Of a DNA stretch of 33,296 nt, positions 2,444 to 25,299 are shown in pieces. The position numbers were made by a program, and so were the translations under genes. The stretch is from Deltaproteobacteria bacterium (lineage in GTDB: Bacteria; Myxococcota; XYA12-FULL-58-9; JABJBS01), in assembly GCA_018668695.1 (NCBI GenBank), contig JABJBS010000417.1, positions 1 to 33,296 on the forward strand. Direction: 5' to 3'. Below the pieces are notes generated by a model. It made no database searches. It saw only the letters and a program-made list of their open reading frames with translations, and was not told the origin of the DNA. Numbering within the stretch: the first letter of the stretch is position 1; each line of letters opens with the position of its first letter.

Positions 2444-2610
2444 CCCAACACCAATCGCAGACGAGATACTCCATTGTCTCCAAAGCTACAACTGGATAAA
2501 GAAAGACCAATGGATTTAGGCCATTAGAGAAGGCAAGTGCCCTACCAGAGGGGCCAGAAAGACCGCCTCGTGATAGGAAAACTGTCGAATTGAAGAGGAT
2601 TTAGAGAAGC
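2444..2610 (-). other. Spacer between ilvN and the TRAP operon
   Basis: This 167-base gap separates the end of the branched-chain amino acid operon from dctQ. I see no U-tract terminator hairpin on the minus strand, only short inverted segments such as GAAG/CTTC at the ilvN stop, and no convincing -35/-10 pair. It may let transcription continue from the biosynthetic operon into the transporter genes, but this is not proven by sequence. Confidence 0.4.
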
Positions 2611-5003: not shown

Positions 5004-5608
5004 GATCTGGCCCATCCTGTATACGGGAGTTGTTCAAAAACTTGTTTCGTTTGATTTTCGCCATCTAGGAGCATTGCGAGCGGGTCCCATTCCCCAGCTA
5101 AAAATGCATCCTTGGCAGTTTGCGGTAAAGACATCGAGTACTTGGATTTCCCAATTTGAACCGTGCCCTCTTCCAACTGAATCACCACTCCGATTTCAGG
5201 ATCAGCTTCTACGGCCTTAGCAATTTCTTGCCGGTCTTCACGACTGACCGATACGCAAAGCATTCCAAGCGTAACAGAATTACCAAAAAATATCTCTGCA
5301 AAACTCTCGGCAATCACCGCTTTAAAACCTGCTCGAACCAAAGCTTGTGGTGCGTGCTCTCTAGAAGAACCACAACCGAAGTTGCTACCGCTAACCATCA
5401 CCGATGACCCAGTAAATTTCGTATCATTCAACGGGTGTGACTTGGCCTTACCCTCTGAATCAAATCGCTCATCATAAAAAACAGTCTCTCCGAGACCATC
5501 GAATGTGACGCAGCGAAGAAACCTGGCAGGAGTGATTCTGTCGGTATCAATGTCATCGCCCGGCACATGAACTGCTGAGCCTTTAACTTCTTTAATGACT
5601 TGTCCCAT
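5000..5608 (-). CDS. leuD: 3-isopropylmalate dehydratase small subunit
   Basis: Swivel-domain subunit that works with LeuC to isomerise 2-isopropylmalate to 3-isopropylmalate (leucine), and also citramalate to 3-methylmalate when a citramalate route is used. The 202-residue product has the substrate-binding signature [14 protein letters not shown] at 74-87 and the N-terminal [13 protein letters not shown] segment, matching the family's typical length. It starts one base after the leuC stop and ends in a four-base ATGA overlap with ilvB, so leuC-leuD-ilvB are coupled. Confidence 0.96.
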
Positions 5609-5609
5609 C

Positions 5610-7013: not shown

Positions 7014-7028
7014 GTTACTCACGCTTCC

Positions 7029-8846: not shown

Positions 8847-8847
8847 A

Positions 8848-9957: not shown

Positions 9958-9958
9958 T

Positions 9959-11521
9959 TCAGGAAGCCTCTCTCTTCTTATCAGCTGCTTGAGCTGAGAC
10001 TTTAGGGTTATCACGGCGCCACGCTGCACGGTTTAAAGCGCTTACGAAAGCCTCTGCACTTGCAACAACAACATCCGTGTCGGTGCTCTGACCTTGAAAA
10101 TGCTCACCATCAGAATCGATCCGAACATTTACACGACCTTGGGCATCAGACCCGCCTGTGATGGCTGAGATCGAATAATCAAGTAAGGTCACGTTATCGA
10201 GGCCAGCACAGCGCTTCACCGCTTCAAGCGCAGCATTCACCGGACCATCGCCTGAAGAGTGTGCACTCACCTCAGCGCCATTTACATTCATCGTCACGGT
10301 TGCGCCGGGCTCCACTGAACTTCCGCCGTTAAATTCCACCGAAGTCAGCTCATAATATGCCTCGACCGCTGTGGCTGAAGAGCCTACCAACGTGTGCAAA
10401 TCTTCGTCGTAAATATTCTTTTTACGATCAGCCAAATCTTTGAAGTCTTTAAAGACAACTTTAAGCTCAGCGTCTGTAAGGCGGTAACCCAAAGTCTCCA
10501 GACGGTCGCGTAAAGCGTGACGCCCTGAATGCTTTCCAAGAACCAAGTTAGACTCGCTGATGCCAACGCTCTCTGGTGTCATGATTTCATAGGTACTTCG
10601 CTCTTCGAGAACACCATGCTGATGGATTCCGGCCTCATGAGCGAAAGCATTTCTACCAACAATCGCTTTATTAGGCTGGACCACCATACCAGTGACTTCA
10701 CTTACCAGGCGGCTAACACTGGTTAGCTGAGTGGCGTCGACCCGCGTTTGAACGTTCATGATGTCCGCACGTGTTCGAAGACTCATTACAATCTCTTCGA
10801 GCGCAGCATTACCAGCACGCTCACCCAGGCCATTGATACAACACTCAACTTGGCGAGCACCTGCCTTGACCGCTGCCAAGGAATTGGCAACCGCTAGACC
10901 AAGGTCGTTGTGACAATGCGCTGAAACAATCGCTTCTGTTCCCTCGGTAACTTTAACGACCTCACCAATCATGTGCTGAAACTCTTCAGGCATGGTGTAC
11001 CCAACCGTGTCCGGTACATTAAGAACAGTTGCCCCATTCTCAATCGCACACGCCATGGCTTCCTTTAGAAAACCGATGTCTGTTCGTGACGCATCCTCTG
11101 CAGAGAACTCTACCCGCTCACAAAGCGAGCGGCACATTCCCACGCCATACTTAATTTGTTCCAAGACCTCTTCACGGGTCATCTTCAACTTGTATTGCAA
11201 GTGAATATCGCTGGTTGCGATAAAAACATGAAAACGTGGCTTCTTAGCAAACTTTAAGGCTTCTTCCGCGGCGCGGATATCATTTTCCCGCGTTCGACAA
11301 AGGCCCGCAATCTCGGCGTTCACCGCAATTTGACTCAGCGCCTGCACCGAGCGGATTTCACCCGGACTTGCCGCTGGAAAACCTGCTTCAATAACATCGA
11401 CTCCCATTGCGTCTAACTTACGCGCAATACGGATTTTTTCATCCTGAGTCATTGTAGCGCCTGGTGACTGCTCACCGTCGCGCAATGTAGTATCGAAAAT
11501 TCGTACGAAATCTTGTGACAT
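9959..11521 (-). CDS. leuA: 2-isopropylmalate synthase
   Basis: Condenses acetyl-CoA with 2-oxoisovalerate to 2-isopropylmalate, the committed step of leucine synthesis. The 520-residue product has the DRE-TIM signature FDTTLRDGEQS (9-19), the metal-binding HCHNDLGLAVANS about residue 200, NGLGERAGNAALEE, and a C-terminal LeuA dimer/regulatory domain from about residue 390 that binds leucine for feedback inhibition in the family. AAGGGA lies eight bases before ATG 11521. It is 22 bases downstream of cimA. The two paralogues in tandem differ in their substrate regions; this one is the LeuA type. Confidence 0.96.
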   Translation of the reverse strand: MSQDFVRIFDTTLRDGEQSPGATMTQDEKIRIARKLDAMGVDVIEAGFPAASPGEIRSVQALSQIAVNAEIAGLCRTRENDIRAAEEALKFAKKPRFHVFIATSDIHLQYKLKMTREEVLEQIKYGVGMCRSLCERVEFSAEDASRTDIGFLKEAMACAIENGATVLNVPDTVGYTMPEEFQHMIGEVVKVTEGTEAIVSAHCHNDLGLAVANSLAAVKAGARQVECCINGLGERAGNAALEEIVMSLRTRADIMNVQTRVDATQLTSVSRLVSEVTGMVVQPNKAIVGRNAFAHEAGIHQHGVLEERSTYEIMTPESVGISESNLVLGKHSGRHALRDRLETLGYRLTDAELKVVFKDFKDLADRKKNIYDEDLHTLVGSSATAVEAYYELTSVEFNGGSSVEPGATVTMNVNGAEVSAHSSGDGPVNAALEAVKRCAGLDNVTLLDYSISAITGGSDAQGRVNVRIDSDGEHFQGQSTDTDVVVASAEAFVSALNRAAWRRDNPKVSAQAADKKREAS

Positions 11522-11543
11522 TAGATTATCCCTTTAACTCGGT

Positions 11544-13151
11544 TCAAGCTGTCGCTTTGACGCGCTGAACCTGAGCCCCCACTTTCATCAATTTATATTC
11601 AAAGGTATCCACAATAGCTTGACGGCTGGCTTCGACCACACTGGTGCTAACACCAACCGTACCCCAGACATCTCGTCCATCCGTCGCGCGAATCAAAACG
11701 CGAACAGTCGAGGCGAAACCCATTCCCTTGTTTAAAATACGAACTTTGTAATCAGTAAGTTTAACGTTGGCCAGTTCCGGATAACGTTTACCCAGCGGCT
11801 CTCTCAGCGCAGTTGCAATTGCGTGAACCGGACCGTTTCCTTCTGCCTCAGACTCATAGGCCTGTGAACCAATGGTCACTTTTAAGCTCGCTCGTGAACT
11901 ACCAGGAGTTTGTTCCTCAGTCGTTAAAGCGTCCATCGCCGTCGTAACCTGCGTTTCACCCAGCTCGAAATAACGCTCTCGTGTTCCTCGGGCTTCATGC
12001 ATCAATAAAAGCAGCGATGCTTCAGCACCCTCGAACTGATACCCGTCGTATTCCAGACTTTTAATCCGCTCTAAAACCTTTCGTGTCCAAGGGTCGTTAG
12101 GGTCAAGCTCTACGCCGAACTCACGCGCCTTAAAAATGATTGTAGAAAAGCCAGATAAATCTGAGGCTAAAATACGTCTGCGGTTACCAACATCGTGAGG
12201 CTGAACGTGCTCATAAGTTCCAGGGTCTTTCATCACTGCGTTGATGTGAACACCGCCCTTGTGTGAGAAAGCCCGGCGCCCAACATAAGGCTGTTGAGGC
12301 TGAGGGATGTAGTTGGTGATCTCGTCAACCGTGCGTGCTAGCTGGGTAAGCCGTGGCATTCGGCTCTCAGGAACACACCCGTAACCCATCTTGAGTTGCA
12401 AATTCGGAATCACGGTAACCAAATCAGCGTTACCACAACGTTCACCGTAGCCGTTCACGGTTCCTTGAACCATGGTCGCGCCAGACTGGACAGCAGCCAG
12501 GGAGTTTGCAACGGCAAGCCCTGCATCGTTGTGGGTATGAATACCAACCTTAGCTTCGAATCGCTCCGAAACGAGGCTGGTCAACCGAGAGATCTCCGCC
12601 GGCAGGCTTCCGCCGTTGGTATCACAAAGCACTAAAAAATCTGCGCCGCCCTGACTCGCGGCCTCGAGGACCTTCATCACATACTCTTCGTCTTCAGCCG
12701 CACCATCGAAAAAATGCTCGGCATCAAAGATGACTTCATCAACACGTGACTTTAAGTAACGAACGGTGTCGTGTACCAATTCAAGATTAACCTCAGGTTC
12801 CACACCCAATGCGGTGGTAGCCTGATACTTAGACGATTTACCAAAGATAGTGACGACAGGAGTATCCGCTTTAACCAAAGCCTGCACGCTGCTGTCTTCG
12901 TCACAAGTCAGCGTTGCTCGCCGAGTTGCGCCAAATGCAGCAATCCGTGCATGGCTCAGGTTAAGCGAACGAACTTCCTTGAAGAAAGCCTCATCACGCG
13001 GGTTAGAACCTGGCCAGCCACCCTCGATATAGGTAATCCCAAAATCGTCGAGTAACTCGGTAAGCATTAGCTTCTCAGGAACGGATACCTGAAAATCTTC
13101 TGACTGTGTTCCATCCCGCAATGTGGTGTCGTAAACGTATACTTTCTTCAT
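11544..13151 (-). CDS. cimA: (R)-citramalate synthase
   Basis: Condenses acetyl-CoA with pyruvate to (R)-citramalate, opening a threonine-independent route to 2-oxobutyrate and isoleucine that then uses LeuCD and LeuB. The 535-residue product belongs to the DRE-TIM metallolyases: DTTLRDGTQSED at 8-19, HTHNDAGLAVANS, NGYGERCGNADL, and a C-terminal regulatory domain. The GTQSEDFQVSVPEK and YIEGGWPGSNPRD segments are characteristic of the Geobacter-type CimA family rather than LeuA or homocitrate synthase. ATG 13151 follows GAGGGATCAC at good spacing; the upstream extension to 13205 is not supported. The call as CimA rather than a second LeuA rests on these segments and on the tandem leuA. Confidence 0.9.
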   Translation of the reverse strand: MKKVYVYDTTLRDGTQSEDFQVSVPEKLMLTELLDDFGITYIEGGWPGSNPRDEAFFKEVRSLNLSHARIAAFGATRRATLTCDEDSSVQALVKADTPVVTIFGKSSKYQATTALGVEPEVNLELVHDTVRYLKSRVDEVIFDAEHFFDGAAEDEEYVMKVLEAASQGGADFLVLCDTNGGSLPAEISRLTSLVSERFEAKVGIHTHNDAGLAVANSLAAVQSGATMVQGTVNGYGERCGNADLVTVIPNLQLKMGYGCVPESRMPRLTQLARTVDEITNYIPQPQQPYVGRRAFSHKGGVHINAVMKDPGTYEHVQPHDVGNRRRILASDLSGFSTIIFKAREFGVELDPNDPWTRKVLERIKSLEYDGYQFEGAEASLLLLMHEARGTRERYFELGETQVTTAMDALTTEEQTPGSSRASLKVTIGSQAYESEAEGNGPVHAIATALREPLGKRYPELANVKLTDYKVRILNKGMGFASTVRVLIRATDGRDVWGTVGVSTSVVEASRQAIVDTFEYKLMKVGAQVQRVKATA

Positions 13152-13205
13152 GTGATCCCTCGGCTGAGTCCTGGAAAGGACGCCGCCCCCCATCTTTAAT
13201 CTCAA

Positions 13206-14192
13206 TTAGTTCTTGCGCTTAAACAGTGCACGTACTTGACGGCCAACCACTTCAATCGGGTGCTTGCTCTCTTCTTCACGAAGGCGATTAAGCTCTGGCA
13301 TGCCTGACTCATATTCAGCCATCCAGTTCTTCGCGAATGTACCGTCTTGAACTTCTGTAAGAGCGCTCTTCATCGCTTTACGTGTGTCGTCTGTTACAAT
13401 CTTTGGTCCAACCATACGGCCACCGTATTCAGCGGTATTCGAGACAACGTCCCACATACGCTCCAGGCCTCCTTCATAAATCAGGTCTACAATGAGTTTC
13501 ATTTCGTGCAAGCACTCAAAGTAAGCCATCTCTGGTGGATAACCTGCCTCAACCAACGTCTCAAAACCGGCCTTAATAAGCTCCGCTGTGCCTCCGCAAA
13601 GAACAGCCTGCTCACCGAAAAGGTCTTCATAGGTCTCATCTGCAAATGTACATTCAAGTACACCTGAACGTGTGCAACCCAGTGCATGTGCCAACGCCAT
13701 TGCCTTGTCTCGTGCTTTACCCGAGGCATCTTGCTCAACAGCCACGAGGCCAGGAACACCAAAACCTTCGAGGTATGCTTTACGCTCTTCTGTACCTGGT
13801 GCTTTAGGGGCAACCAAAATGCAGTCTACGTCTTCTGGTGGAGTGACATATCCAAAAAGAACATTGAAACCATGCGAGAACGAAAGCGTCTTGCCTGCAG
13901 TAACGTGGCGGGCAATGTACTTTTGATAAACTTTGCTCTGAACCTCATCAGGGATCAGAATGTGGATGACCTCAGCAGCTTTGGCCGCCTCTTCGATGGT
14001 AGCAACCGGCAGACCATCTTCTTGTGCCAATTTCCATGAAGCTCCATCTTCGCGAACACCAACAGTTACATTGAGGCCTGAGTCTTTGAAACACTGAGCC
14101 TGTGCGCGCCCTTGAGCACCATAGCCAATTACTGCGATCGGCGTATCCTTAAGCGCGTCAATCGAAGTTTCATCTGCTGTTGTTACTTTCAT
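13206..14192 (-). CDS. ilvC: Ketol-acid reductoisomerase
   Basis: Mg- and NADPH-dependent enzyme converting acetolactate and acetohydroxybutyrate to dihydroxy acids. The 328-residue class I protein shows the Rossmann motif GYGAQGRAQA (23-32), the catalytic HGFN region, and the C-terminal knotted domain with the metal-binding residues Asp190, Glu194 (DLFGEQAVLCGG), Glu226 and Glu230. ATG 14192 (MKVTTADE) is preceded by AAGGAAAAGAAA; the longer open frame reaching 14240 would read through the U-tract of the attenuator and starts in a non-conserved tail, so I reject it. It is the first structural gene behind the attenuator and its expression is probably governed by it, together with the eight genes that follow. 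Confidence 0.96.
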   Translation of the reverse strand: MKVTTADETSIDALKDTPIAVIGYGAQGRAQAQCFKDSGLNVTVGVREDGASWKLAQEDGLPVATIEEAAKAAEVIHILIPDEVQSKVYQKYIARHVTAGKTLSFSHGFNVLFGYVTPPEDVDCILVAPKAPGTEERKAYLEGFGVPGLVAVEQDASGKARDKAMALAHALGCTRSGVLECTFADETYEDLFGEQAVLCGGTAELIKAGFETLVEAGYPPEMAYFECLHEMKLIVDLIYEGGLERMWDVVSNTAEYGGRMVGPKIVTDDTRKAMKSALTEVQDGTFAKNWMAEYESGMPELNRLREEESKHPIEVVGRQVRALFKRKN

Positions 14193-14221
14193 TTTCTTTT
14201 CCTTTTTCTTTCTAAATCCCC

Positions 14222-14263
14222 AAAAAAAAAGGCCGACCAACTCGGTTCTGAGTGGGTCGGCCT
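14222..14263 (-). terminator. Intrinsic terminator of the ilvC leader (attenuator)
   Basis: On the minus strand AGGCCGACC (14263-14255) pairs perfectly with GGTCGGCCT (14238-14230), extended by a second four-pair helix (CTCA/TGAG-type, 14253-14250 with 14243-14240) after one mismatch, with a hexaloop. It is followed directly by a run of nine T (14230-14222 as read on minus). This is a textbook Rho-independent terminator placed 30 bases before the ilvC start, so it would stop transcription before the operon unless an alternative fold forms. Confidence 0.92.
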
Positions 14264-14310
14264 ACGGGGTGATTCTTTTCGGTTAGTTACCTCAAAGCAC
14301 CTCGTAGGCC
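14259..14310 (-). promoter_or_regulatory. Antiterminator pairing of the ilvC attenuator
   Basis: The segment GGCCTACGAGGTG (14310-14298, minus strand, inside the end of the leader peptide gene) is complementary to CACCCCGTAGGCC (14271-14259) at 12 of 13 positions. The second segment includes the 5' half of the terminator stem, so antiterminator and terminator exclude each other. A third segment CCTCGGTAG (14341-14333) can pair with CTACGAGG (14307-14300) with one bulged G, giving the protector 1:2 stem. The Ile-Ile-Ile-Leu-Leu codons (14331-14317) lie in the loop between segments 1 and 2, where a stalled ribosome would mask segment 1 and free segment 2. Confidence 0.85.
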
Positions 14311-14451
14311 ACATCTGAGCAAAATAATAATGCTACCGAGGAGGCCTAGGAGATTGAGGCTGACGACAGTTCTGCGGACGACGAGACCAGAAACTCCACC
14401 GACTGCAGGGTGAACTGCGCTTCCGGTGTTATGTGCAAAATGAGATTGCAT
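14287..14451 (-). CDS. Branched-chain amino acid leader peptide (ilvL-like)
   Basis: A 54-residue reading frame between the promoter and the attenuator. Twenty of its residues are Val, Leu or Ile, clustered in VV (24-25), VV (29-30), LLGLL (34-38) and IIILL (41-45), and it ends CGLRGALR, similar in style to the end of the E. coli ilvGMEDA leader peptide. AAGAGG lies just before ATG 14451 at short spacing. The stop at 14287 places a terminating ribosome over antiterminator segment 2, which allows the terminator to form when charged tRNAs are plentiful. No enzymatic role is expected; translation itself is the sensor. The exact start is less certain than the stop. Confidence 0.85.
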   Translation of the reverse strand: MQSHFAHNTGSAVHPAVGGVSGLVVRRTVVSLNLLGLLGSIIILLRCGLRGALR

Positions 14452-14500
14452 GAGCCTCTTATCCGTTGTCTGTCTGCAGGTCTTTCTGCGACTTAGAGGA

Positions 14501-14529
14501 AGCCTAAGCCGCGATTTTTCCACGGTCAA
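14501..14529 (-). promoter_or_regulatory. Promoter of the ilvC leader and operon
   Basis: Minus strand TTGACC (14529-14524), 17-base spacer, TAGGCT (14506-14501). Transcription would start near 14494, giving about 43 bases before the leader peptide ATG. Five of six -35 bases and three to four -10 bases match the sigma-70 consensus. Confidence 0.75.
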
Positions 14530-14657
14530 GATAAAAATCACTGCAATGCGTCAATCATTACAAAAACTTTCCCTCACCGACGATCTCCTACATCTGACTA
14601 CCTATTGAACGTCAATGAACCTGAACCAGCACCATGGACAACCCACGAGCCGAATCA

Positions 14658-16328
14658 TTATCGACCTTTGCCAGAATAAAGCGAAGGAAAGCCGGTAACA
14701 GCCCCTTCTGACGCGGATGCCACGGTATGGATGTACTTTGCCATGGCGCCCTGGTGGTAGCGAGGCTCAGGTGCAGTCCACTCTTGTTCCCGTTCACTGA
14801 GATCGGCCAAGACGTCCAACGTACGTTTTTCAACGTCGATTCGGATTGTGTCGCCCTCTCGCACATGCGCGATGGGGCCGCCCACAGCAGCCTCCGGCGA
14901 TACGTGGCCAATCACAAAGCCGTGACTCGCACCGCTGAATCGGCCATCCGTCAATAGAGCCACATCACCAAGAATTCCGTGGCCCGCGAGAGCGGCAGTT
15001 ACGGCAAGCATTTCTCGCATACCCGGGCCGCCCTTGGGGCCCTCATAGCGAATCACGATGACATCCCCAGCTTTAATATCGCCGGACTGAACTGCCTCAA
15101 ACGCCAACTCTTCCTTATCGAAAACTCGTGCCGGCCCCTCGTGAAGTGCTCTTTCGGAACCACAAAGTTTAATAACGCAGCCCTCTGGTGCAAGGCTGCC
15201 TCGGAGAATAGCCAAACCACCACGTGGTTTCACCGGTTCTTGAACCGGCATCAAGACTTCCTGGCCGGGATTTTCATGCGCTGACTCAGCCTCCGCGCTT
15301 AACGATAAACCCGTGACCGTCTGTTCGTCAGTCATCAAGCCGGCGTCTAGAAGTCTCTTACAGACCAAGCGCACGCCCCCAGCCGCTTCCATATCTGGTG
15401 CGGTGAAACGACCCGTTGGCTTCAAGTCAGCGATGATTGGCGTTTTCGCCATCACTTCATCAATCACGTCGATGGCAAACTCAATTTCAAGCTCACGCGC
15501 AATCGCCAATAAGTGGAGTACAGAGTTGGTTGAGCCACCCGTGGCGGCTGTTGCAGCAATAGCATTGCGAAGAGACTGCTCTGTAATGATATCGCGTGGA
15601 CGACGATTGTGCTTATGAGCATCCATTACCAAGCGACCCACGTCGTAGGCCACCTGCTCTTTTCGGGGATCTACAGCCGGGACGTCATTGGCGCCCATCG
15701 GTGAAATTCCCATGGCCGTAAGCGCTGTTGCCATGGTGTTGGCGGTAAATTGACCACCACATGCACCGGCTCCAGGACACGCCTTCGACTCTAGGATTCG
15801 GAGTTCACCTTCAGTGATGCTTCCTGCAGCACAAGCACCGACTGCCTCAAACACATCTTGAATCGTCACATCAATTTCTTTGTGGCGCCCAGGCATAATC
15901 GAACCACCGTAGAGTGCTACGGATGGCAGGTTAAGCCTTGCTAAACCCATCACAACACCAGGAATCGTTTTATCGCAGCCACTCAAACCGACGACAGCGT
16001 CAAACATATGACCCCGCACGGCAAGCTCTAAGGAATCCGCAACCACTTCACGGCTCATCAAAGAGGCTTTCATGCCTTCTGTGCCCATACTGATACCATC
16101 AGAGACCACAATCGTGTTGAACTCGACAGGGGTACCACCAGCATCACGGATGCCGCGCTTCACGTGCTCCGCCAGCTTATTCAGGTGCATATTGCAGGGC
16201 GTAACTTCGGTCCAAGTATTGACCACCGCTACGAAGGGTTTTTCCAGGTCCTCGTCGGTGAGCCCGGTTGCTTTTAACATTGCACGAGCCGGCGCTCGCG
16301 ATACATCTGCTTTGTTATTGATACTCAT
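14658..16328 (-). CDS. ilvD: Dihydroxy-acid dehydratase
   Basis: Iron-sulfur enzyme that dehydrates 2,3-dihydroxy acids to 2-oxoisovalerate and 2-oxo-3-methylvalerate, the third common step of the valine/isoleucine pathway. The 556-residue product has Cys45 (EVTPCNMH), Cys118 (GCDKT) and Cys190 (GACGGQF), the three-cysteine arrangement of the family's cluster site, plus the [24 protein letters not shown]-terminal signature seen in part. Length is typical of IlvD. ATG 16328 shares its first base with the stop of the upstream GGDEF gene (TAATG), so translation is coupled. It lies upstream of the ilvC promoter on the same strand and is not under the ilvC attenuator. Confidence 0.96.
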
Positions 16329-17261: not shown

Positions 17262-17583
17262 CAGCTTAGTTTCGATAATATTGTGATTAGCTAAAAGAGT
17301 TGTAAAGCGGATCGGCCCTGGTATCGTAACAGAAGAAACCGGCTCACCAATCCTCTTGGTGGAATACAAAAGACCATTTTATAAGTATTTTCGTATAATT
17401 AGGGGCCTTGTGCTACCGCCACGTTCTAAACGCCGTCACCAAACCGTGCCATCAAACCGGCCTGACCACTTTTAAGTGCCCTCATACCGTTACCCAGCTA
17501 CTTGTCAGCCGGGCCCTGAACCATGATTTTTCTACACTCCACTCATTTTGAGATAAACAAGATGGCTCGTAAGGGTTGTGCAC
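17262..17583. other. Non-coding part of the divergent GGDEF/puuD spacer
   Basis: No convincing gene is seen. The stretch contains an AT-rich patch at about 17370-17400 and an imperfect inverted repeat, CCGGCCTGAC (17457-17466) against GTCAGCCGG (17504-17512), enclosing the small palindrome CACTTTTAAGTG (17467-17478). It could hold operator sites for the urate gene downstream, but nothing in it matches a regulator site I know. Confidence 0.35.
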
Positions 17584-17612
17584 TCGACATATTCGCCGCA
17601 ATCTCGTATAGT
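17584..17612 (+). promoter_or_regulatory. Promoter of puuD
   Basis: TCGACA (17584-17589), 17-base spacer, TATAGT (17607-17612), about 55 bases before the chosen ATG. The -10 matches five of six consensus bases, the -35 four of six. Confidence 0.6.
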
Positions 17613-17668
17613 ACGCGTCCGCGTTTTTTCCGGAAAACGAATGGCTCAATAGCGTTGGAGTGTTGCTC

Positions 17669-18853
17669 ATGGATCCTTATATTGCCGATTGGCTCAATCT
17701 TGTATTTCGGTGGATTCATATAATCGCAGGCGCAGCCTGGATTGGGGCATCCTTTTACTTCAACTGGCTCAACAACAGTATCCGCCCTCCAGAAGAAGCC
17801 ACGCCGGGAATTGCCGGCAATCTCATCGCTGTTCATGGCGGCGCCTTTTATGAGGTTCGTAAATACAGCGGTGCTCCCCATAAACTTCCTAAAACGCTTC
17901 ATTGGTTTAAGTGGGAAGCCTATCTTACTTGGCTCAGCGGCTTTCTTCTGCTTTTGGTCGTCTACTACCTCAACGCCGATGTTTACATGGTAGACAAAGA
18001 CGTAGCCAACATCACCGCCAATACGGCTCGTATCGTCGGTATTTCCAGCCTCGTCGGTGGTTGGTTCGTGTATGACCTACTTTGTAAAACACCACTGGTT
18101 GAACGCACCACTTGGTTTGCTCTCATCGGTTTTGGCCTGATGACCCTAAGCGCTTACACCCTCTGTAACCTTTTGGGCAGCCGAGCTGCCTACATTCACG
18201 TTGGCGCGATGATGGGTACGATGATGGCTGGCAACGTATTTTTTAATATCATCCCCAATCAAAAGCTCATGGTTGATGCACTGCTTGCGGGAAGAGCACC
18301 CGAACTCAAAAAGGGAAAAGAGGGAGCACTTCGCTCACTCCACAACAATTACCTTACCCTGCCCGTCCTCTTCATTATGATCAGCAATCACTTCCCCATG
18401 ACCTACGGGCACGAATCAAATTGGGCAGTCCTCGCCGCACTTGCGCTGATTGGAGCCGGTACGCGCCATTATTTTAACCTCGTCGGACAAGGTGAAAAGA
18501 AGGTCTGGATTCTTCCAGTTGCCGCGCTGGCTATGGTCGCCCTAGCACTCGTAACCAGACCCGTTACGCCGGAACCGATCCCGGGAATCACTGCAAATTT
18601 CTCAGAGGCTCAAGCCATCATTCAAACCCGGTGTTTACCCTGCCATGCAACAGAGCCAACACATCCGGCCTTTCCTGAACCACCCCTGGGAATCGTTTAC
18701 GACACCCCCGAAGACATCAAACGTTATGTTGATAAAATTCTAACGGTGGCGGTCCACAATAAGACCATGCCGTTAGGGAATTTAACCAAAATGACGGATG
18801 AAGAGCGGGCAAAGCTCGGCGCCTGGATAAGCGCCGGAGCTTCGTTAGATTAA
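17669..18853 (+). CDS. puuD: Membrane urate hydroxylase with C-terminal cytochrome c (PuuD)
   Basis: Oxidises urate to 5-hydroxyisourate at the inner membrane, passing electrons to the respiratory chain through a fused cytochrome c instead of producing H2O2. The 394-residue product starts with about eight membrane helices (HIIAGAAWIGASFYFNWLNN in helix 1, HVGAMMGTMMAGNVFFNIIP later) typical of the PuuD N-terminal domain. A C-terminal domain follows with heme site CLPCH (Cys322, His326) and a candidate axial Met in KTMPLGN. ATG 17669 is eight bases after GGAG; a GTG nine bases upstream is in frame but less likely. It converges on, and overlaps by three bases, the end of the urate operon on the opposite strand, which encodes the next steps. 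Confidence 0.92.
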   Translation: MDPYIADWLNLVFRWIHIIAGAAWIGASFYFNWLNNSIRPPEEATPGIAGNLIAVHGGAFYEVRKYSGAPHKLPKTLHWFKWEAYLTWLSGFLLLLVVYYLNADVYMVDKDVANITANTARIVGISSLVGGWFVYDLLCKTPLVERTTWFALIGFGLMTLSAYTLCNLLGSRAAYIHVGAMMGTMMAGNVFFNIIPNQKLMVDALLAGRAPELKKGKEGALRSLHNNYLTLPVLFIMISNHFPMTYGHESNWAVLAALALIGAGTRHYFNLVGQGEKKVWILPVAALAMVALALVTRPVTPEPIPGITANFSEAQAIIQTRCLPCHATEPTHPAFPEPPLGIVYDTPEDIKRYVDKILTVAVHNKTMPLGNLTKMTDEERAKLGAWISAGASLD

Positions 18854-20310
18854 GCTGAGATTCGCTTACGACGGGCTTCCAAGATTCTGCCGAAAGAGCG
18901 CATCTGAATCTCTTCCTGCGTGAGCCCCGTAACCGCCAGCTCATCAAGGGAGACGGCGCCACAATTGAGCGCTCGTAAAAAGTAATTCAAGAGACCTTGA
19001 CCAGTCGCCGCATCATCAAAAACATCCCCAACCAAAGTGGCCTGGGCCGCTTTGGAGACGAAGTTACTTAAACGCTCAGCCGCGGCGTTAAATCCCTCAA
19101 GAAAAAACGAATAACAGGCAGCATAACGCACAGGCAGTTGCCCCGGGTGTAAATCCCATCCTTGATAGATTCCGTTTTCCAAGGAGTGACGGGTATGTTC
19201 AAAAGCAAGCTTCCATGCTTGATGAACGACGGTCCGGTTTGCTGCTTGCTCTTCTGCATTCAGTTCAGAACCTTTCGCAGCTTTATGAGGCCCTACTGGC
19301 ATCACATTCGTAGCGCCATCACTCAAGAAAATCCCTGTACCTCCATAGGCATTGATCATCATGCTTCGAGCAAAATCACAGGCTGCATGGTCCATCGTTT
19401 GGTAGGCAGCCGTGATTGAGCACGAGGCCGTATAATCATAAGTGCCAAAATGCGCAGCGACGCAGCGGCCCTCAGCAGCATTAAAAAGTACTGGTAGGTG
19501 AGCGCGGCCCGTTGAATTAAACAGAGACTGAGTAACCTCTACCATCAGCTCAAGCTTTAAACTGCCATCTGATAGTCCTAAGCGGTGCTCGAGAACTTCA
19601 AACATACGTACGAGAGCAGTCACCTGTTCTGGAATCGTTACCTTAGGTAGAGTCACAACGAAGTTTTCAGGCAGTTTCCCACCCGTTGCCTCGATCAAAG
19701 TGCTTACGAAAATATCGAGAGTCCGCACGGCGCGATGTGTCAGTTCTTCGGTCAGCGTTTTGATTCGAATTCCGATAAAAGGAGGCGCTGTGTTTTCAGC
19801 CATTGCTCTTGCAAGTTCGCTGGCTGTTCGCAATGCCTCTGCATCCTCCTCATCATCGCTTCGAGTACCATAACCATCTTCAAAATCAATTCGGTAGTCT
19901 TCAACTGCTTCTTGCTTAATCTTATTTTCAACGCGTTCATAGACAGTTTGGGCGAGCCATGCACCAAAACAACTTTCACGCAGAGCATCAGGCGCTTGCG
20001 CATAGGTCTTCTCAAACTCTTTAAGCTCTTGAGCCGTAGTGTCCAAAGCTTCATGCCCCTGAAGTTCAAGAGCTTTGGCGAAAGTAAATGCATCCGGAGC
20101 ATCTTTCTTAAAGGCACGCATGGCCAGCTCACCAAGCTTGCTTGTTGTCTCGGCCTTATAAAGCTGGGCGCCACCGTACACGCTGTGAACAGGTTGCCGG
20201 TGGGGACTGTCTCCCGGAAATCGTCTCATGAAAATTTTATTAGCCCGGCTCAAATCAGCAAGAGCCGAAGACGTTTCCTGGGCTAAGTTACTCGTTATTG
20301 TATCTGTCAT
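18850..20310 (-). CDS. CitE/HpcH-like aldolase-lyase of the urate operon
   Basis: A 486-residue member of the HpcH/HpaI aldolase - citrate lyase beta superfamily, longer than CitE (about 300). Seen: an acidic metal site DFEDGYGTR (142-150), RIK (182-184), TLPK (220-223), LELMVE (253-258) and HFGTYDYTAS (287-296), in the order of the superfamily barrel strands. Similar proteins, annotated as aldolase or a domain of unknown function, are known to me in bacterial purine catabolism clusters, but I know of no proven reaction. The context suggests a role on glyoxylate or a related ureide product, for example a Claisen-type condensation with acetyl-CoA; this is inference. ATG 20310 is one base after the HIU hydrolase stop, the last gene of the operon. 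Confidence 0.8.
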   Translation of the reverse strand: MTDTITSNLAQETSSALADLSRANKIFMRRFPGDSPHRQPVHSVYGGAQLYKAETTSKLGELAMRAFKKDAPDAFTFAKALELQGHEALDTTAQELKEFEKTYAQAPDALRESCFGAWLAQTVYERVENKIKQEAVEDYRIDFEDGYGTRSDDEEDAEALRTASELARAMAENTAPPFIGIRIKTLTEELTHRAVRTLDIFVSTLIEATGGKLPENFVVTLPKVTIPEQVTALVRMFEVLEHRLGLSDGSLKLELMVEVTQSLFNSTGRAHLPVLFNAAEGRCVAAHFGTYDYTASCSITAAYQTMDHAACDFARSMMINAYGGTGIFLSDGATNVMPVGPHKAAKGSELNAEEQAANRTVVHQAWKLAFEHTRHSLENGIYQGWDLHPGQLPVRYAACYSFFLEGFNAAAERLSNFVSKAAQATLVGDVFDDAATGQGLLNYFLRALNCGAVSLDELAVTGLTQEEIQMRSFGRILEARRKRISA

Positions 20311-20311
20311 T

Positions 20312-20665
20312 TTAGCTGCCTCGGTAGGTCGAAAAACCGTAAGGGTTAAGAAGTAGCGGCACATGGTAATGCTCTTGTGCGTTCTTCACCTCAAACACGA
20401 TAGATGCCTCAGGATAAAAGGCTTCGCGCCCCTCTTCTTTAAAGTATGCACCTATCGCAAAATGAATGCGGTAAGTTCCTTCAACCAATTTCTCGCTGCT
20501 CATCAGATCGGCCACTCGGCCATCAGCATCAGTGACACCTTGGCCAATAGACTCCCAACTTTCAGTTTCACCGGTGCTTGATTTACGTTCCAAGCTCACC
20601 GTCACACCGGTCGCTGGTCGACCGATAGAGGTATCTAAAATATGGGTCGTTATAGGACTACTCAT
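20312..20665 (-). CDS. hiuH: 5-hydroxyisourate hydrolase
   Basis: Transthyretin-like enzyme that hydrolyses 5-hydroxyisourate, the product of PuuD, to OHCU. The 117-residue product matches the family: HILDTSIGRPA with the catalytic histidine at residue 8, the GRVADL and EGTYRIHF strands, the HYHVPLLLNPYGFSTYRGS end carrying the second histidine and the diagnostic C-terminal YRGS. There is no signal peptide, so it acts in the cytoplasm. The start overlaps the OHCU decarboxylase stop (ATGA). It lies between genes for the following and a later step. Confidence 0.95.
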   Translation of the reverse strand: MSSPITTHILDTSIGRPATGVTVSLERKSSTGETESWESIGQGVTDADGRVADLMSSEKLVEGTYRIHFAIGAYFKEEGREAFYPEASIVFEVKNAQEHYHVPLLLNPYGFSTYRGS

Positions 20666-21165
20666 AATACAATCTTCTCCAGTCTGAGCTGCGTTATCTT
20701 TGCTTGCTCATTGGCTGCTATCTTTAGCTCTGCGTCAATTTCGTTATTCATGCGCGATTCCAAAATTGCCAACATTTCAGCCGCGCTTTTTCCAGTGGCA
20801 CATACTATAAATATGTGGCCGTATCGGGTCTCGTACCTCTTATTGGCATCACGCAATGCTATCAGAGTCGACTCCGAGGCGGAGGCGACACTTGATTGCT
20901 CGGCCTCTGATAAGCCCGCCGTCTTAGAAAACTTTTTACGTAAAGCATCCAGATCTGCGCCAATTCTGGGGTGATGCTCAAAGGCCTCTAAGATGTCAGC
21001 TCGGTCCATTTTCGACCAGACAGTCTGCGCCGCTGTATTCAGCGCCCCACGATTCTGATAAGGCCGCGCCAAAAGCACACCCGCCACCCAACGCTTAGCG
21101 CCACAACACTTGGCTAAAACCTCACGCGCGTCGGTTTCGCTTAACGCATTCAAACCTTCAGTCAT
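20662..21165 (-). CDS. uraD: OHCU decarboxylase
   Basis: Decarboxylates 2-oxo-4-hydroxy-4-carboxy-5-ureidoimidazoline to S-allantoin. The 167-residue product carries the active-site HPRIG (His65), the SEAEQSS segment, and the RYGHIFIVCATGKSA motif of the family, at the usual length. It is coupled at both ends: one shared base with the allantoicase stop (TGATG) and a four-base ATGA overlap with hiuH. Together with PuuD and HiuH it completes the stereospecific route from urate to S-allantoin. Confidence 0.95.
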   Translation of the reverse strand: MTEGLNALSETDAREVLAKCCGAKRWVAGVLLARPYQNRGALNTAAQTVWSKMDRADILEAFEHHPRIGADLDALRKKFSKTAGLSEAEQSSVASASESTLIALRDANKRYETRYGHIFIVCATGKSAAEMLAILESRMNNEIDAELKIAANEQAKITQLRLEKIVL

Positions 21166-22196
21166 CAGTCGCTGACCTTACCATAGGCTCTGAATCTGCT
21201 GATTCCGCCATCTGGGTAAATATTAAGTCGTAAATGTGTCACGGTGCCGAGATCGATAAGCTCGTCTTGGACGAAGCGCCGGTCGTCGGCTTCTAATTTT
21301 AGAGGTTCTAAAATGGGCTTCCAGTCGGCAGTGAGTAAATCTGTCACACGCTCACCTGGAGCATGAATTGCCTCAATCATGCATGTATCGGGGTAATTGC
21401 CCTTGTAGTGATGCGTGCTTATTTCCATCCAGTGGATCTCTCCTGGATGACTAAGCCTGATAAGAACCCAATCAAAACCCGGACCTCTCCGGCGCCGAGT
21501 TTCCCAACCTTCGCCCATGTTGGCAGCTCGCCCTGGCAATATAAGGTTGTTCATTGAACTGAAGAACATATCGCTGCAGGCCAGCGCCAAACCACCATGG
21601 CGAGCCGCAACCAAATCGACCTCACCTGGTTTGCGTCGGCCTTTAATTTCTTCATCTAAGTCGTCGGTGGAATCACTCCAGTCGGTATGAACGTCTCCAA
21701 AAACACGAAACCTCGCCACTCCACCATCTGGGAAAATATTGAGTCGAACGTGAGTGGCAACCTCTTCACTTTGTACTGAAAACAAGTTTTGGGAACCTGC
21801 CCGCAAAGCCGATTGTGTGAGTATTTCTTTCCAAACCGCCTTCTCAATGCCCTCACCGGGTGCGAGAGTAGCCACTTCAACCGATGCATAGGGCGCATGA
21901 TTTCCAAGAAAATGATTGGTGTCGATATCTAGGCCACGGATGATTCCAGGGACCCCAAGCTCAAGTATGCACCAGTCGTACCCTGGTCCTCGTTTGCGTC
22001 GGCTCTCCCAACCATCCATCCATTTTCCGCGGTCGGTGTAGCGATCGGGATCAAAAATTCCACGACCCGGTTTAACCAAATTACTGGCTTCGGCGAAGAA
22101 CTCATCGTTGGTCGCGAGGGCTCGGCCGCCCATAGACTCACCCAGTAAATCTAATAAACCTGAAAATGTTGCGGTACCTGAATCGGCCTGGCTCAT
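21165..22196 (-). CDS. alc: Allantoicase
   Basis: Hydrolyses allantoate to ureidoglycolate and urea. The 343-residue product contains two homologous jelly-roll halves, seen as repeated motifs: WESRRKRGPGYDW with LRLNIFPDGG-like VRLNIFPDGGVARFR in the first half, and WETRRRRGPGFDW with LRLNIYPDGGISRFR in the second. Length is typical of bacterial allantoicase. ATG 22196 (MSQADSG) follows CGGGAGC at good spacing; the longer frame from 22220 lacks support. Allantoinase, which would link UraD's product to this enzyme, is not in the window, so the substrate must come from a gene elsewhere. Confidence 0.94.
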   Translation of the reverse strand: MSQADSGTATFSGLLDLLGESMGGRALATNDEFFAEASNLVKPGRGIFDPDRYTDRGKWMDGWESRRKRGPGYDWCILELGVPGIIRGLDIDTNHFLGNHAPYASVEVATLAPGEGIEKAVWKEILTQSALRAGSQNLFSVQSEEVATHVRLNIFPDGGVARFRVFGDVHTDWSDSTDDLDEEIKGRRKPGEVDLVAARHGGLALACSDMFFSSMNNLILPGRAANMGEGWETRRRRGPGFDWVLIRLSHPGEIHWMEISTHHYKGNYPDTCMIEAIHAPGERVTDLLTADWKPILEPLKLEADDRRFVQDELIDLGTVTHLRLNIYPDGGISRFRAYGKVSD

Positions 22197-22224
22197 GCGT
22201 TTGCTCCCGAGAAATCTCACAAAT

Positions 22225-22253
22225 ATTTTAAATATATTAACCGCTCAAGACAA
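22225..22253 (-). promoter_or_regulatory. Candidate promoter of the allantoicase operon
   Basis: Minus strand TTGTCT (22253-22248), 17-base spacer, TAAAAT (22230-22225), about 30 bases before the ATG. The area is a run of A and T with short inverted parts, so an overlapping operator is possible. Confidence 0.5.
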
Positions 22254-22292
22254 CAAGGCGGCCGGCCATTTAAGCCTATTCGCAAGGAAAGT

Positions 22293-22684
22293 TCAATCTT
22301 TTGTTATGTGAGGATAAGAAATACGCAGAAGAGGACCTCTGGCAAACTCGGGAATTTGTTGCCAGAAGCCCTCTTCTACGCTGAGCTCCCCCAAGCTCAA
22401 TTTCACCCCCCAAAGCAGGCGAATCGTACGTAGAAAACGCAGCGGTACATCAAGTTCCAAAGCCAATGATGTAAGAATCAGGGCAAATGGTTTGACGACT
22501 CGCTCGTAACATCGCCGAACTTGGCCGAAGCCGCATCATCAGCGATGGCCCCCAAAACATCAGCGATGCTGTGTTTGGTTATCCCTTGCCCGCCCCCAGG
22601 CAAAATGAGTTTTGCATTCTGAAGGTTCACTTGTAAAGACAAAACCGAATCTAAATTCAGGAAATAGCGATGTAGGACAAGCTC
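22293..22684 (-). pseudogene. Probable frameshifted gene remnant downstream of the CYTH gene
   Basis: Two neighbouring minus-strand frames read like protein but do not join. Frame A (22684-22478, 68 codons after a TAA, ending at TGA 22480-22478) contains LQNAKLILPGGGQGITKHS and DVLGAIADD. Frame B (22535-22293, 80 codons after a TGA) contains RCYERVVKPFALILTS, LRFLRTIRLLWGVKLS and GFWQQIPEFARGPLLRISYP. One lost base in the overlap around 22520-22540 would fuse them to a protein of roughly 130 residues. Neither has a good ATG and ribosome site. I do not recognise the family. It may be a decayed gene, a sequencing error in an intact gene, or chance; composition and hydrophobic patterning favour a former coding region. 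Confidence 0.5.
22327..22377. repeat. Long imperfect inverted repeat
   Basis: AGAAGAGG (22327-22334) pairs with CCTCTTCT (22370-22377) and CTGGCAA (22339-22345) with TTGCCAG (22359-22365), separated by four-base internal loops and a 13-base loop. There is no T-run on either side, so it is not an obvious intrinsic terminator. It falls inside the frame B remnant. Confidence 0.6.
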
Positions 22685-22721
22685 TTACACTCTTAGAGGG
22701 GAAATAAAAAGTCGCAAAATG

Positions 22722-23189
22722 CTACCAGCTCTTAAACGGTTGGGCGATTAAATTAGAGTTCAAATAGCGGGTGTCGTGACTAACTTCAGCCCCAACCCAA
22801 TCCGGCTTTTCAAAAGCTTCATCTTCACTCGTCAACTCAATTTCGGCGACAACCAATCCCTCATTCTCACCGGCGAAAACATCGATCTCCCAAGTATGAG
22901 GACCACACGTAAGCTTATGCCGTCGCTTCTCAATGGTGGGCTGCAAGCAAAGTTCGCGTAGCATCGTTTGAGCATCATCCAAGGGTATTTCGTATTCAAA
23001 TTCAGGACGACTTATTCCATCTCCCTTACCCTTAATCGTCACCACAGCTTTTTCACCCATTTGGCGAACTCTTACGACCCGCTCAGGTGTCGTAGAAAGG
23101 TAACCTTGATGATAATACTCCCCTGCATCAGCATCAGCTTGCCAAGAGTCACTCTGTAAAAGGAACTTACGCTCGATCTCTACACCCAT
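22722..23189 (-). CDS. CYTH-domain protein (triphosphate tunnel metalloenzyme)
   Basis: A stand-alone CYTH protein of 155 residues, a beta-tunnel enzyme that in bacteria usually hydrolyses inorganic tripolyphosphate and in a few cases makes cAMP or binds thiamine triphosphate. The metal-binding signature ExExK is at residues 4-8 (EIERK), followed by RVRQMGEKAVVTIKGKG and the basic and acidic tunnel strands EFEYEIP, TIEKRRHKL, WEIDVFAGEN and AEIEL. ATG 23189 sits seven bases after AAGGAG; the longer open frame to 23246 is not used. The short single-domain form without CHAD domain suits tripolyphosphatase. Substrate remains inferred. Confidence 0.9.
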   Translation of the reverse strand: MGVEIERKFLLQSDSWQADADAGEYYHQGYLSTTPERVVRVRQMGEKAVVTIKGKGDGISRPEFEYEIPLDDAQTMLRELCLQPTIEKRRHKLTCGPHTWEIDVFAGENEGLVVAEIELTSEDEAFEKPDWVGAEVSHDTRYLNSNLIAQPFKSW

Positions 23190-23277: not shown

Positions 23278-23371
23278 TGACAAGGTTCACCATGTACCCA
23301 AAATCTCAACGGCATAGGCCTAAGTTCATGGTATCTTGCTTCCCCGTTTATCCTACGCCCAAAAAACTATC

Positions 23372-24148
23372 ATGAACAACGTAGATGCAAGTGAAATTCA
23401 AATTGATGCATTAGAAATTGAATCCACTCTAGATGGCTCATCAACTTTAATCGACCGAGCCACTGGGATCACCTACCGCTCGCTCTTTGGCGCATATACC
23501 GAGTCTACCTATGTCTTTGTGGAAGGTAGCCGGGTCTTCTCCAAAAAAGGACCATGGAATATCTTAGAATTCGGTCTGGGCGGCGGCAGCAACTTAATGA
23601 GTACACTAAAGAGGTACAGAGAAAATCATTCGACTGCTGCGCTTCATTACCATGCCATTGAACGTGCTCCTGTTTTGCCTGCGATTGCGCAAGAGCTACA
23701 TAAAGCACACGGTTTCTACTCAGATTTAGAACTCTTGTTGAGTGCTTTGAATATGGCGCTAGAAATACCGAAGCAGCCCCTTTTCATGAAGCACCCATCT
23801 TTGAATATCACGCTTACTTTGTGGTTAGGCGACTTCCGAAGAGCCAAGCTTCCTCGAGCCACCTTCGACGCTGTTTACCACGACCCCTTCGACCCAAGGG
23901 TCAATCCCGACGGCTGGACCGACGCTTGGTTTTCCGCTGCCAGGCACGCTATGAAAGACGATGGCATTCTTACGACTTACAGCGCCGCCACTCCCACACG
24001 AAGAGCGATGGCAAAGGCAGGACTACACGTCGGTATTCAGCCCGGTGTTGGCGGCAAAAGAGAAATGACTGGCGCATCACCCAATCCAAAATCCCTCCAA
24101 GGCTACAAACTATTGCCAGCCCATAAGCAACCTGGGGCAACCCGATGA
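23372..24148 (+). CDS. mnmD: tRNA U34 aminomethyl methyltransferase, stand-alone MnmD
   Basis: SAM-dependent methyltransferase (DUF752) that methylates the 5-aminomethyl-(2-thio)uridine at the wobble position, equivalent to the N-terminal half of E. coli MnmC. The 258-residue protein shows the SAM loop EFGLGGGSN (66-74), an acidic end of the second strand HAIE (94-97), and the family motif DPFDPRVNP (171-179) in place of the usual catalytic loop. ATG 23372 is chosen because the protein then begins just before the conserved region; its ribosome site is weak and a TTG at 23336 is an alternative. The stop overlaps the start of the FAD gene by four bases (ATGA), so both halves of MnmC are coupled but separate here. 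Confidence 0.9.
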   Translation: MNNVDASEIQIDALEIESTLDGSSTLIDRATGITYRSLFGAYTESTYVFVEGSRVFSKKGPWNILEFGLGGGSNLMSTLKRYRENHSTAALHYHAIERAPVLPAIAQELHKAHGFYSDLELLLSALNMALEIPKQPLFMKHPSLNITLTLWLGDFRRAKLPRATFDAVYHDPFDPRVNPDGWTDAWFSAARHAMKDDGILTTYSAATPTRRAMAKAGLHVGIQPGVGGKREMTGASPNPKSLQGYKLLPAHKQPGATR

Positions 24149-25299
24149 CTAAAACCACTCTAATTATTGGTGGCGGAATTGCTGGACTCACATTGGCTCA
24201 AAGTCTTGTTCAAGCTGGCTACGACTCTAAGAATTTAGTCATCGTCCACCGACCGGTTACAGGTCAAACTGGGTCGACCAATCCGGGCGGACTCTTAAAT
24301 CCAGTCCCCGGAGCTTCACTTAATCCCAAGCCAGGAACCTTAAAAGCCTTTCGCTATACCATGAGCTGGATCGAGACATTCCCCTCAGCACTCCGGGCTC
24401 AATGCATCACCAACCTGAAACTGCTTCGACCCTTTAATCTCGAAATTCAGCCAGGGCGTAGGCTCCTCAAATCATTTCAGCAAAGCCAAGAGATTCTCAA
24501 CGAACATGTGGGCGTTCGTCAGCTCAGCACAGCCGAACTACAAGAGGTTTATCCTCATTTAAATGGGTGCGATGGCGCCATCGAATTCGCCGAGGCCGCC
24601 ACGCTGCCGATGAATGAAGTTAGTGATTACTTAACCCAGAAGCTCATCGAAGCTGGCGTATGTATAAAGACTTCTCAAGTGCTTAGGGTTTCCAATCTAC
24701 CCAATCATTGGCAAGTTGACCTTCACGGAGAATCGATTGAAGCCGAGCAAGTAGTATTTGCCACGGGGTCTGAGTTACTCCAATTTTTTCCGAACCTTCC
24801 CTTACGAAGCACGGCTGGGTACCTCGCACAGATCACGATGCCTTCGGCATTTCCAAAGACTCACGCTGTGAGTGGTAGAGGTCACCTTTGCCCCATGGCC
24901 GATGGTAGCTGGATCCTAGGAGCCACCTATCACCAAGAGAGTGCCCCGGAACCCGAAGACGATGCGGCCTTGCGGCAAATTCTTCTGAGTAAAATTGGCC
25001 AATGGGTGGGTGAGACTCATCAAAGTGAATGGCTAGGTTCATGGCGAGGAGTTCGTGCAGTCATCGCTCCCGAGAAACAACCGCTCATTGGAGCCATTCC
25101 AGGTTCCAGTGGCCTTTTCGTACTCGGTGGTTTCGCTTCCCGAGGGCTTCAGTGGGCCCCCTTTTGTTCTCAGCAACTCGCAACACACCTTATGGGCGCT
25201 CCGTTGGCATTACCTGAATCGATTTTAAGCAGTAGATTGAATGCAGAAACGTGGACACTAAACGCGCAGAAACAAGCTCACCAAACTTCGCCAAGCTGA
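24145..25299 (+). CDS. mnmC: FAD-dependent cmnm5U34 oxidoreductase, MnmC C-terminal-type
   Basis: FAD enzyme of the DAO family that would remove the carboxymethyl group from cmnm5(s2)U34 of tRNA, the step before MnmD. The 384-residue product begins with a dinucleotide-binding GGGIAGLTLAQ (9-19), contains TNPGGLLNPVPGASLNPKPG, close to the equivalent SGNRQGALYP-like region of MnmC, and ends with the DAO signature LFVLGGFASRGLQWAPFCSQ (split here in description). The identification rests on the fold plus its overlap with mnmD; without the partner it would be only a DAO-family oxidoreductase. Its last 22 bases overlap the convergent PilZ gene. Confidence 0.82.
   Translation: MTKTTLIIGGGIAGLTLAQSLVQAGYDSKNLVIVHRPVTGQTGSTNPGGLLNPVPGASLNPKPGTLKAFRYTMSWIETFPSALRAQCITNLKLLRPFNLEIQPGRRLLKSFQQSQEILNEHVGVRQLSTAELQEVYPHLNGCDGAIEFAEAATLPMNEVSDYLTQKLIEAGVCIKTSQVLRVSNLPNHWQVDLHGESIEAEQVVFATGSELLQFFPNLPLRSTAGYLAQITMPSAFPKTHAVSGRGHLCPMADGSWILGATYHQESAPEPEDDAALRQILLSKIGQWVGETHQSEWLGSWRGVRAVIAPEKQPLIGAIPGSSGLFVLGGFASRGLQWAPFCSQQLATHLMGAPLALPESILSSRLNAETWTLNAQKQAHQTSPS

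Follow-up and report, generated by a model that had tools for sequence, protein, structure and literature searches.

The window analyzed here is a stretch of 33,296 nucleotides (positions 1 to 33,296 of contig JABJBS010000417.1, assembly GCA_018668695.1) from a deltaproteobacterium, and its urate degradation operon ends in a gene of the Pfam family DUF6986 (PF22484). The operon runs on the minus strand from alc, encoding allantoicase (21165 to 22220; PF03561, TIGR02961), through uraD, encoding OHCU decarboxylase (20662 to 21165; PF09349, TIGR03180), and hiuH, encoding 5-hydroxyisourate hydrolase (20312 to 20665; PF00576, TIGR02962), to the DUF6986 gene at 18850 to 20310, whose CitE-like product was recognized by open reading frame (ORF) listing, Pfam and predicted structure. 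The hiuH, uraD and alc products each exceed the cut-offs of their Pfam model and of a main NCBIfam model. Adjacent genes overlap by 1 base (alc and uraD) or 4 bases (uraD and hiuH), and a single base separates hiuH from DUF6986. A preliminary description of this locus had placed a 486-residue protein at the end of alc-uraD-hiuH, one base from hiuH, which the ORF and the Pfam and NCBIfam matches confirm. The frame opens with ATG at 20310 and spans 486 codons to a stop ending at 18850. An in-frame ATG at 20364 would give 504 amino acids and an overlap of 53 bases with hiuH; the start at 20310 is preferred because it lies 1 base past the hiuH stop and is preceded by GAGG about 9 bases upstream. 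A convergent plus-strand gene at 17660 to 18853 encodes a puuD-type membrane urate oxidase (PF06181, with a cytochrome c domain match below cut-off), and its stop overlaps that of DUF6986 by 4 bases. Allantoicase produces ureidoglycolate and urea; no allantoinase was found in a Pfam scan of 25 window ORFs (the window has 58 ORFs of at least 90 amino acids). A scan of positions 17400 to 22800 gave 8 promoter-like sites (4.6 expected, standard deviation 2.0) and 10 terminator-like sites (6.6 expected, standard deviation 2.9), and neither result was used.

The window protein matches PF22484 with 601 bits (E value of 1.2e-180, profile positions 2 to 407 of 408, cut-off of 27). Its match to HpcH_HpaI reaches 23.3 bits, under the cut-off of 25, and a Nocardia homologue scores 31.4 bits against the same model. 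No NCBIfam model matches at an E value of 1e-3, and the Pfam scan gave no match to PF04115, the ureidoglycolate lyase family. The window protein also differs from malate synthases in having no match to their family PF01274 at an E value of 1e-3; its relatives score about 20 to 34 bits against that model, some of them over the cut-off of 26.4, and in two genomes (G199 and G203) the coordinates show that the weak PF01274 match falls within the DUF6986 gene itself. A single-sequence search of the PDB with the window protein gave no match. A profile of 77 homologues reached malyl-coenzyme A (malyl-CoA) lyases 5ugr (2.9e-5) and 4l9y (0.0012) and malate synthase G (about 0.05), and hhalign gave 97.4% against three CitE-like proteins, with FDDAAT aligned to MIDAAT, and 72% against eight malate synthase A-type proteins. 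The long ORFs around five homologues contain no second, fused domain besides the overlapping HpcH_HpaI match. A literature search found no paper with the term DUF6986, and searches on related terms found no work on such a protein, as judged by titles or the first lines of abstracts. We rate DUF6986 as a catalogued family without assigned function that forms its own branch of the CitE-like superfamily, linked for the most part to ureides.

An AlphaFold2 model of the window protein, built on 72 sequences, has a predicted local distance difference test score of 93.5 and a predicted template modeling score of 0.90. The first Foldseek matches are 3qqw, a putative lyase, and 4l9y. By VIA-align, in which 928 of 1,000 aligned chains have a Z score of at least 8, the top match is the Rhodobacter sphaeroides malyl-CoA lyase 4l9y (Z of 28.0, root mean square deviation of 2.5, 291 aligned residues), accompanied by human CLYBL (27.2), Chloroflexus malyl-CoA lyase (26.7), 5ugr (26.3), Haloferax malate synthase (24.6), Escherichia coli malate synthase A (23.3) and CitE 1sgj (23.2). 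The comparison proposed in the preliminary description thus finds malyl-CoA lyase, CitE and malate synthase all matching the predicted structure, malyl-CoA lyase best. CLYBL and the CitE-like proteins 3qqw and 3r4i (Z of 27.2, 25.0 and 24.8), the latter two listed without an assigned reaction, share the fold, but their identity is 18 to 20% and DUF6986 is longer. Malate synthases A and G and the haloarchaeal enzyme share the barrel (Z of about 21 to 24.6) and the catalytic set. Likeness to the R. sphaeroides malyl-CoA lyase (4l9y/4l9z) extends from the fold to counterparts of its Mg2+ ligands, Arg, D-x-E-D motif and lid acid, whereas the two differ in length (486 residues in DUF6986 against 339 in the PDB chain), with 17% identity over the aligned part. 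DUF6986 thus firmly belongs to the CitE-like/malate synthase superfamily, with a predicted triosephosphate isomerase barrel of the malyl-CoA lyase/CitE type, and the earlier assignment to this group is upheld by fold, profile comparison and catalytic residues alike.

Zarzycki and Kerfeld (PMC3832036) list the residues common to malyl-CoA lyases, other CitE-like enzymes and malate synthases, which in the R. sphaeroides malyl-CoA lyase are Asp42, Glu44, Asp45, Arg76, Glu141, Asp168 and the lid acid Asp299. Their counterparts in DUF6986 are, in the same order, Asp142, Glu144, Asp145, Arg182, Glu258, Asp292 and Asp432 or Asp433, as derived from hidden Markov model (HMM) and profile alignments rather than coordinate superposition. 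All of these up to Asp432 are invariant in 120 of 120 aligned homologues, and position 433 is Asp in 115 and Glu in 5. The metal ligands Glu258 and Asp292 are placed consistently across the HMM alignments; the pairing of Arg182 and of the D-x-E-D motif (Asp142, Glu144, Asp145) was drawn from the sequence order of the residues and from an alignment to 3r4i that is weak. For the lid acid, Asp432 is indicated by HMMER alignment to the Chloroflexus malyl-CoA lyase and Asp433 by hhalign to CitE-like proteins. The preliminary description had named absence of the CoA- or glyoxylate-binding residues as grounds for abandoning its proposal; by these alignments, counterparts of the glyoxylate site are present.

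The residue preceding the metal-binding Asp likely limits the size of the acyl group according to the same study, which gives Ala at this position in malyl-CoA lyases (100% conserved in two MCL clusters), Leu454 in malate synthase G, Trp277 in E. coli malate synthase A and Val191 in the haloarchaeal enzyme (PMC3832036). DUF6986 has Tyr291 here (Tyr in 117 and Phe in 3 of the 120 homologues), unlike the Ala of malyl-CoA lyases and like the bulky residues of malate synthases A and G. Judged from sequence, so bulky a residue would make propionyl-CoA an unlikely substrate and acetyl-CoA a possible one. The invariant Trp385 of a QGWD motif aligns with the Trp of the KWAIHP motif in malyl-CoA lyases and CitE-like proteins and may contact glyoxylate. 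Lys184 (119 of 120), Gln304 (119 of 120) and Asp386 (120 of 120) are strongly conserved as well and lie beyond the common catalytic residues; Lys184 and the QGWD motif further distinguish the family from malyl-CoA lyase. The HP motif has its His at position 388 (window protein numbering); Asn stands there in 27 of the 77 ureide-linked homologues and His in all 43 others, a difference that may point to a sub-branch or to altered function.

The gene context of homologues was taken from the best 80 of 590 confirmed DUF6986 loci in a scan of GTDB genomes; these scored highest against an alignment headed by the window protein and therefore lean towards its own kind. Ureide genes in them were called by their best phmmer match to reference proteins, with single representatives of allC, allE, allB and uricase checked against NCBIfam. 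At least one of hiuH, uraD, alc, allB and allE occurs in 66 of the 80 loci, and in 51 a codirectional ureide gene lies within 400 bp of DUF6986, most often hiuH upstream (42 loci). This arrangement is not due to chance. Two kinds of operon are found repeatedly. One is allB-alc-uraD-hiuH-DUF6986, with alc present in 38 loci, and the other, from Hymenobacter, Chitinophaga, Niastella and relatives, is allB-allC-allE-uraD-hiuH-DUF6986, with allE present in 22 loci; one locus scores for both alc and allE. The alc and allC-allE routes both end at ureidoglycolate. The neighbor families found in at least five loci are urate pathway genes, a two-component kinase, an aldehyde dehydrogenase (five loci; MMSDH-type by one scanned member) and a family of 158 amino acids (five loci). 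Five actinobacterial homologues are plasmid borne. One has guaD on one side and an AllE-type gene on the other, a second is flanked by a polysaccharide deacetylase and an NCS1 permease, and a third, from Gordonia, stands immediately ahead of urease genes; the records of the remaining two list no genes around the homologue. Outside ureide loci the neighbors (peptidases, Uma2, RadA-like, TonB receptor, MnmG, and others or genes of no family) are uninformative. In a SAR324 locus (L095, positions 2532 to 9425) an aminotransferase, an unassigned gene, FdrA/AllF and AllH stand upstream of DUF6986, an arrangement like that of the oxalurate branch of allantoin use; its close relative L093 has an alc-type operon instead.

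Do these genomes encode a known ureidoglycolate lyase? The PF04115 enzymes AllA/DAL3 are a different sequence family, whose position in the pathway DUF6986 might fill. We searched 49 genomes of the 80 loci, a nonrandom choice of mostly long flanks that omits locus L096, and found PF04115 in four, once strongly (158 bits) and three times weakly (58.7, 29.5 and 28.2 bits). The strong match is from Myxococcus qinghaiensis, whose DUF6986 gene does not adjoin ureide genes. The locus includes alc or allE in 44 of the searched genomes, of which 42 have no PF04115 match and the other two have partial matches (58.7 and 29.5 bits), in a search that covered PF04115 and not ureidoglycolate dehydrogenase (AllD) or the amidohydrolase. 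The window genome likewise has alc, and PF04115 was not found in it. In a sample of 297 Acidobacteriota-type genomes (the phylum of G203), 17 have alc above cut-off, and DUF6986 is intact in 14 of these, split into two pieces of 88 and 72 bits in G374, doubtful in G359 (a 25-bit piece under cut-off) and absent from G395, where a PF04115 gene directly follows alc. PF04115 occurs in only one other of the 17, G456, which also has DUF6986. This pattern points to an anticorrelation of the two families, with too few genomes lacking DUF6986 for a statistical test.

The same anticorrelation was not found in the window's own phylum. In 195 Myxococcota-type genomes, DUF6986 was counted only at PF22484 scores of at least 300 bits, which left out 22 of 119 genomes with a match, including G026 with a contig-edge piece of 59 bits; PF04115 matches of 41 and 34 bits (G191 and G142) were not counted as ureidoglycolate lyase. 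By these rules DUF6986 is present in 97 genomes, alc in 89 and PF04115 (at least 148 bits) in 77, all of them alc positive. The 89 alc-positive genomes comprise 67 with both DUF6986 and PF04115, 10 with DUF6986 only, 10 with PF04115 only and 2 with neither. PF04115 is thus equally frequent with DUF6986 (67 of 77) and without it (10 of 12), indicating that the two families are independent in this phylum. In the genus that holds M. qinghaiensis (g58, 27 genomes), alc is found in 20 genomes, PF04115 in the same 20 and DUF6986 in all 27.

Twenty Myxococcota-type genomes, 14 of which are at least 93% complete, carry DUF6986 with neither alc nor hiuH above cut-off (one has a subthreshold hiuH match), which speaks against a role limited to ureides. 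In an alignment that included eight of the 20 proteins, positions with at least 95% conservation among the ureide-linked members were never altered in more than half of the eight. The Acidobacteriota-type sample adds 16 genomes with DUF6986 (at least 390 bits) and no alc, with hiuH in two loci (L176 and L183). In seven loci (L170, L173, L174, L175, L177, L178 and L182) DUF6986 lies beside or near a RadA-like gene, as scanned in three representatives. Eleven alc-negative members from this phylum, including these seven, show recurrent substitutions (Q261E, G332S and A333V in nine each, G384S in eight), and they may differ in function and possibly catalyze another reaction. A separate clade for nonureide members was considered and rejected as a clean split, since the labels interleave on the tree, with 18 label changes of which at least 10 are forced (a quick tree of 113 rows with several long branches, in which nine short loci had no label). 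Shuffled labels were equally low in just 3 and 1 of 500, indicating some clustering of these members.

Malate synthase and isocitrate lyase were searched in the same 49 genomes, with strong matches set at about 190 and 175 bits or more, respectively, and an isocitrate lyase match of 43.5 bits in G205 left out. Malate synthase is strong in 19 genomes, weak in 18 and absent from 12. Of the 44 genomes that have a ureide route, 27 could have DUF6986 as their sole malate synthase-like enzyme, by a search that covered malate synthase but not other CitE-like proteins. Isocitrate lyase is strong in 18 of the 49, and 17 of these also have a canonical malate synthase, the exception being G225, a metagenome-assembled genome (L091). 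A general replacement of the glyoxylate shunt malate synthase by DUF6986 is rejected on this ground.

What, then, does DUF6986 do? Its predicted structure and conserved residues suggest that it may condense glyoxylate with acetyl-CoA at the end of the urate pathway, a reading whose chance of being correct we put at about even. It fits best because the site is of the glyoxylate/acyl-CoA type, the acyl-limiting residue is bulky, the gene stands at the end of a glyoxylate-yielding pathway, and the family is retained without alc and hiuH; the 30 of 49 genomes lacking a strong canonical malate synthase also count in its favor. In the proposed mechanism, Mg2+ held by Glu258 and Asp292, with Glu144 and Asp145 in the second shell, would chelate glyoxylate, and Arg182, oriented by Asp142, would polarize it; acetyl-CoA would lose a proton to the lid acid, either Asp433 or the invariant Asp432 next to it, and the enolate would attack glyoxylate to give malyl-CoA, or malate after hydrolysis. 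The analysis shows the predicted fold, the residues and the gene context, whereas the substrates, the binding of CoA and any hydrolysis of the thioester are inferred. Several observations weigh against condensation. The profile of DUF6986 is less close to malate synthase than to CitE-like proteins, and the assignment of Arg182 and D-x-E-D depends on the weak 3r4i alignment; hhalign offsets Arg182 by a few residues from the CitE-like Arg, which makes this pairing the least certain. Isocitrate lyase nearly always comes with its own malate synthase, as noted above. The window genome itself has malate synthase A (385 bits) and isocitrate lyase and so needs no second shunt enzyme, and a strong malate synthase is present in 18 of the 20 alc-negative Myxococcota-type genomes with DUF6986 (isocitrate lyase in seven of the eight searched). 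Condensation would also leave the missing ureidoglycolate lyase to spontaneous decay or to an enzyme outside the search.

The preliminary description had called a glyoxylate-consuming, malate synthase-like role attractive but unproven; its link to glyoxylate is backed by gene context and by the bulky Tyr291, while its direction is contested by a glyoxylate-making role, because most searched genomes with the operon lack the PF04115 enzyme. In this main rival, which we consider unlikely, DUF6986 would be a nonhomologous ureidoglycolate lyase on the CitE/malate synthase fold: Mg2+ would bind the carboxylate and hydroxyl of ureidoglycolate, as with malyl-CoA, Arg182 would remove the hydroxyl proton, and the C-N bond would break to release glyoxylate and urea without CoA. 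That both operon types ending at ureidoglycolate carry DUF6986 agrees with such a lyase, as do its being the only function-less neighbor family in at least five loci apart from the unscanned 158-residue family, its place before urease genes in Gordonia, and the scarcity of PF04115 in those searched genomes whose locus holds alc or allE, its absence from the window genome and its rarity in the alc-positive Acidobacteriota-type genomes, where the one without DUF6986 has PF04115 after alc. The lyase is harder to reconcile with the 67 alc-positive Myxococcota-type genomes that hold both enzymes, with the equal frequency of PF04115 there with and without DUF6986, and with the 20 genomes lacking alc and hiuH, and a C-N lyase would not obviously require the retained lid acid. 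Ureidoglycolate also decays spontaneously, as stated in PMC3793230, which weakens the need for an enzyme, so that the gap need not be filled. In our judgment the lyase explains the missing PF04115 better, and the nonureide genomes worse, than condensation does. In its boldest form the glyoxylate may be retained and condensed with acetyl-CoA, converting ureidoglycolate to urea and malate in one active site; if true, this would explain both the missing lyase in many genomes with a urate operon and the persistence of DUF6986 in genomes that lack alc and hiuH and would offer it free glyoxylate only. Still more doubtful is a glyoxylate-linked C-C lyase or synthase with a partner other than acetyl-CoA, be it another acyl-CoA, a 2-oxoacid or a cleavage that supplies glyoxylate. 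The superfamily is described as promiscuous in partner and direction (PMC3832036), the conserved Lys184, Gln304 and Asp386 may form a different site for the second substrate, and in the SAR324 locus L095, with its upstream aminotransferase, glyoxylate might serve as amino acceptor; Tyr291, read in light of the same paper, speaks against propionyl-CoA, and the lid acid against CoA-free chemistry of the HpcH/HpaI type.

Many of the genomes searched, from Bacteroidota, Acidobacteriota and other phyla, have no PF04115 enzyme for the final carbon step in the use of urate and allantoin, and that place in the operon is occupied by one widespread family without known function and with a recognizable active site. 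Deciding whether DUF6986 consumes or makes glyoxylate would name a family found in multiple phyla and close the pathway.

Elsewhere in the window, a branched-chain amino acid cluster on the minus strand (2611 to 16328) contains acetolactate synthase subunits, leuCDB-like genes, ilvC, ilvD, an isopropylmalate synthase-like gene and a citramalate synthase (TIGR00977), together with a malic enzyme (7029 to 8846, NF010052) that seems out of place there. On the plus strand, the halves of MnmC, the methyltransferase MnmC2 and an MnmC1-like flavin adenine dinucleotide oxidoreductase scoring below the cut-off of its model, are two separate overlapping genes (23336 to 24148 and 24145 to 25299). An arginase gene (29217 to 30131, plus strand; TIGR01229, 293 bits), whose product also forms urea, lies about 7 kb from the urate operon.

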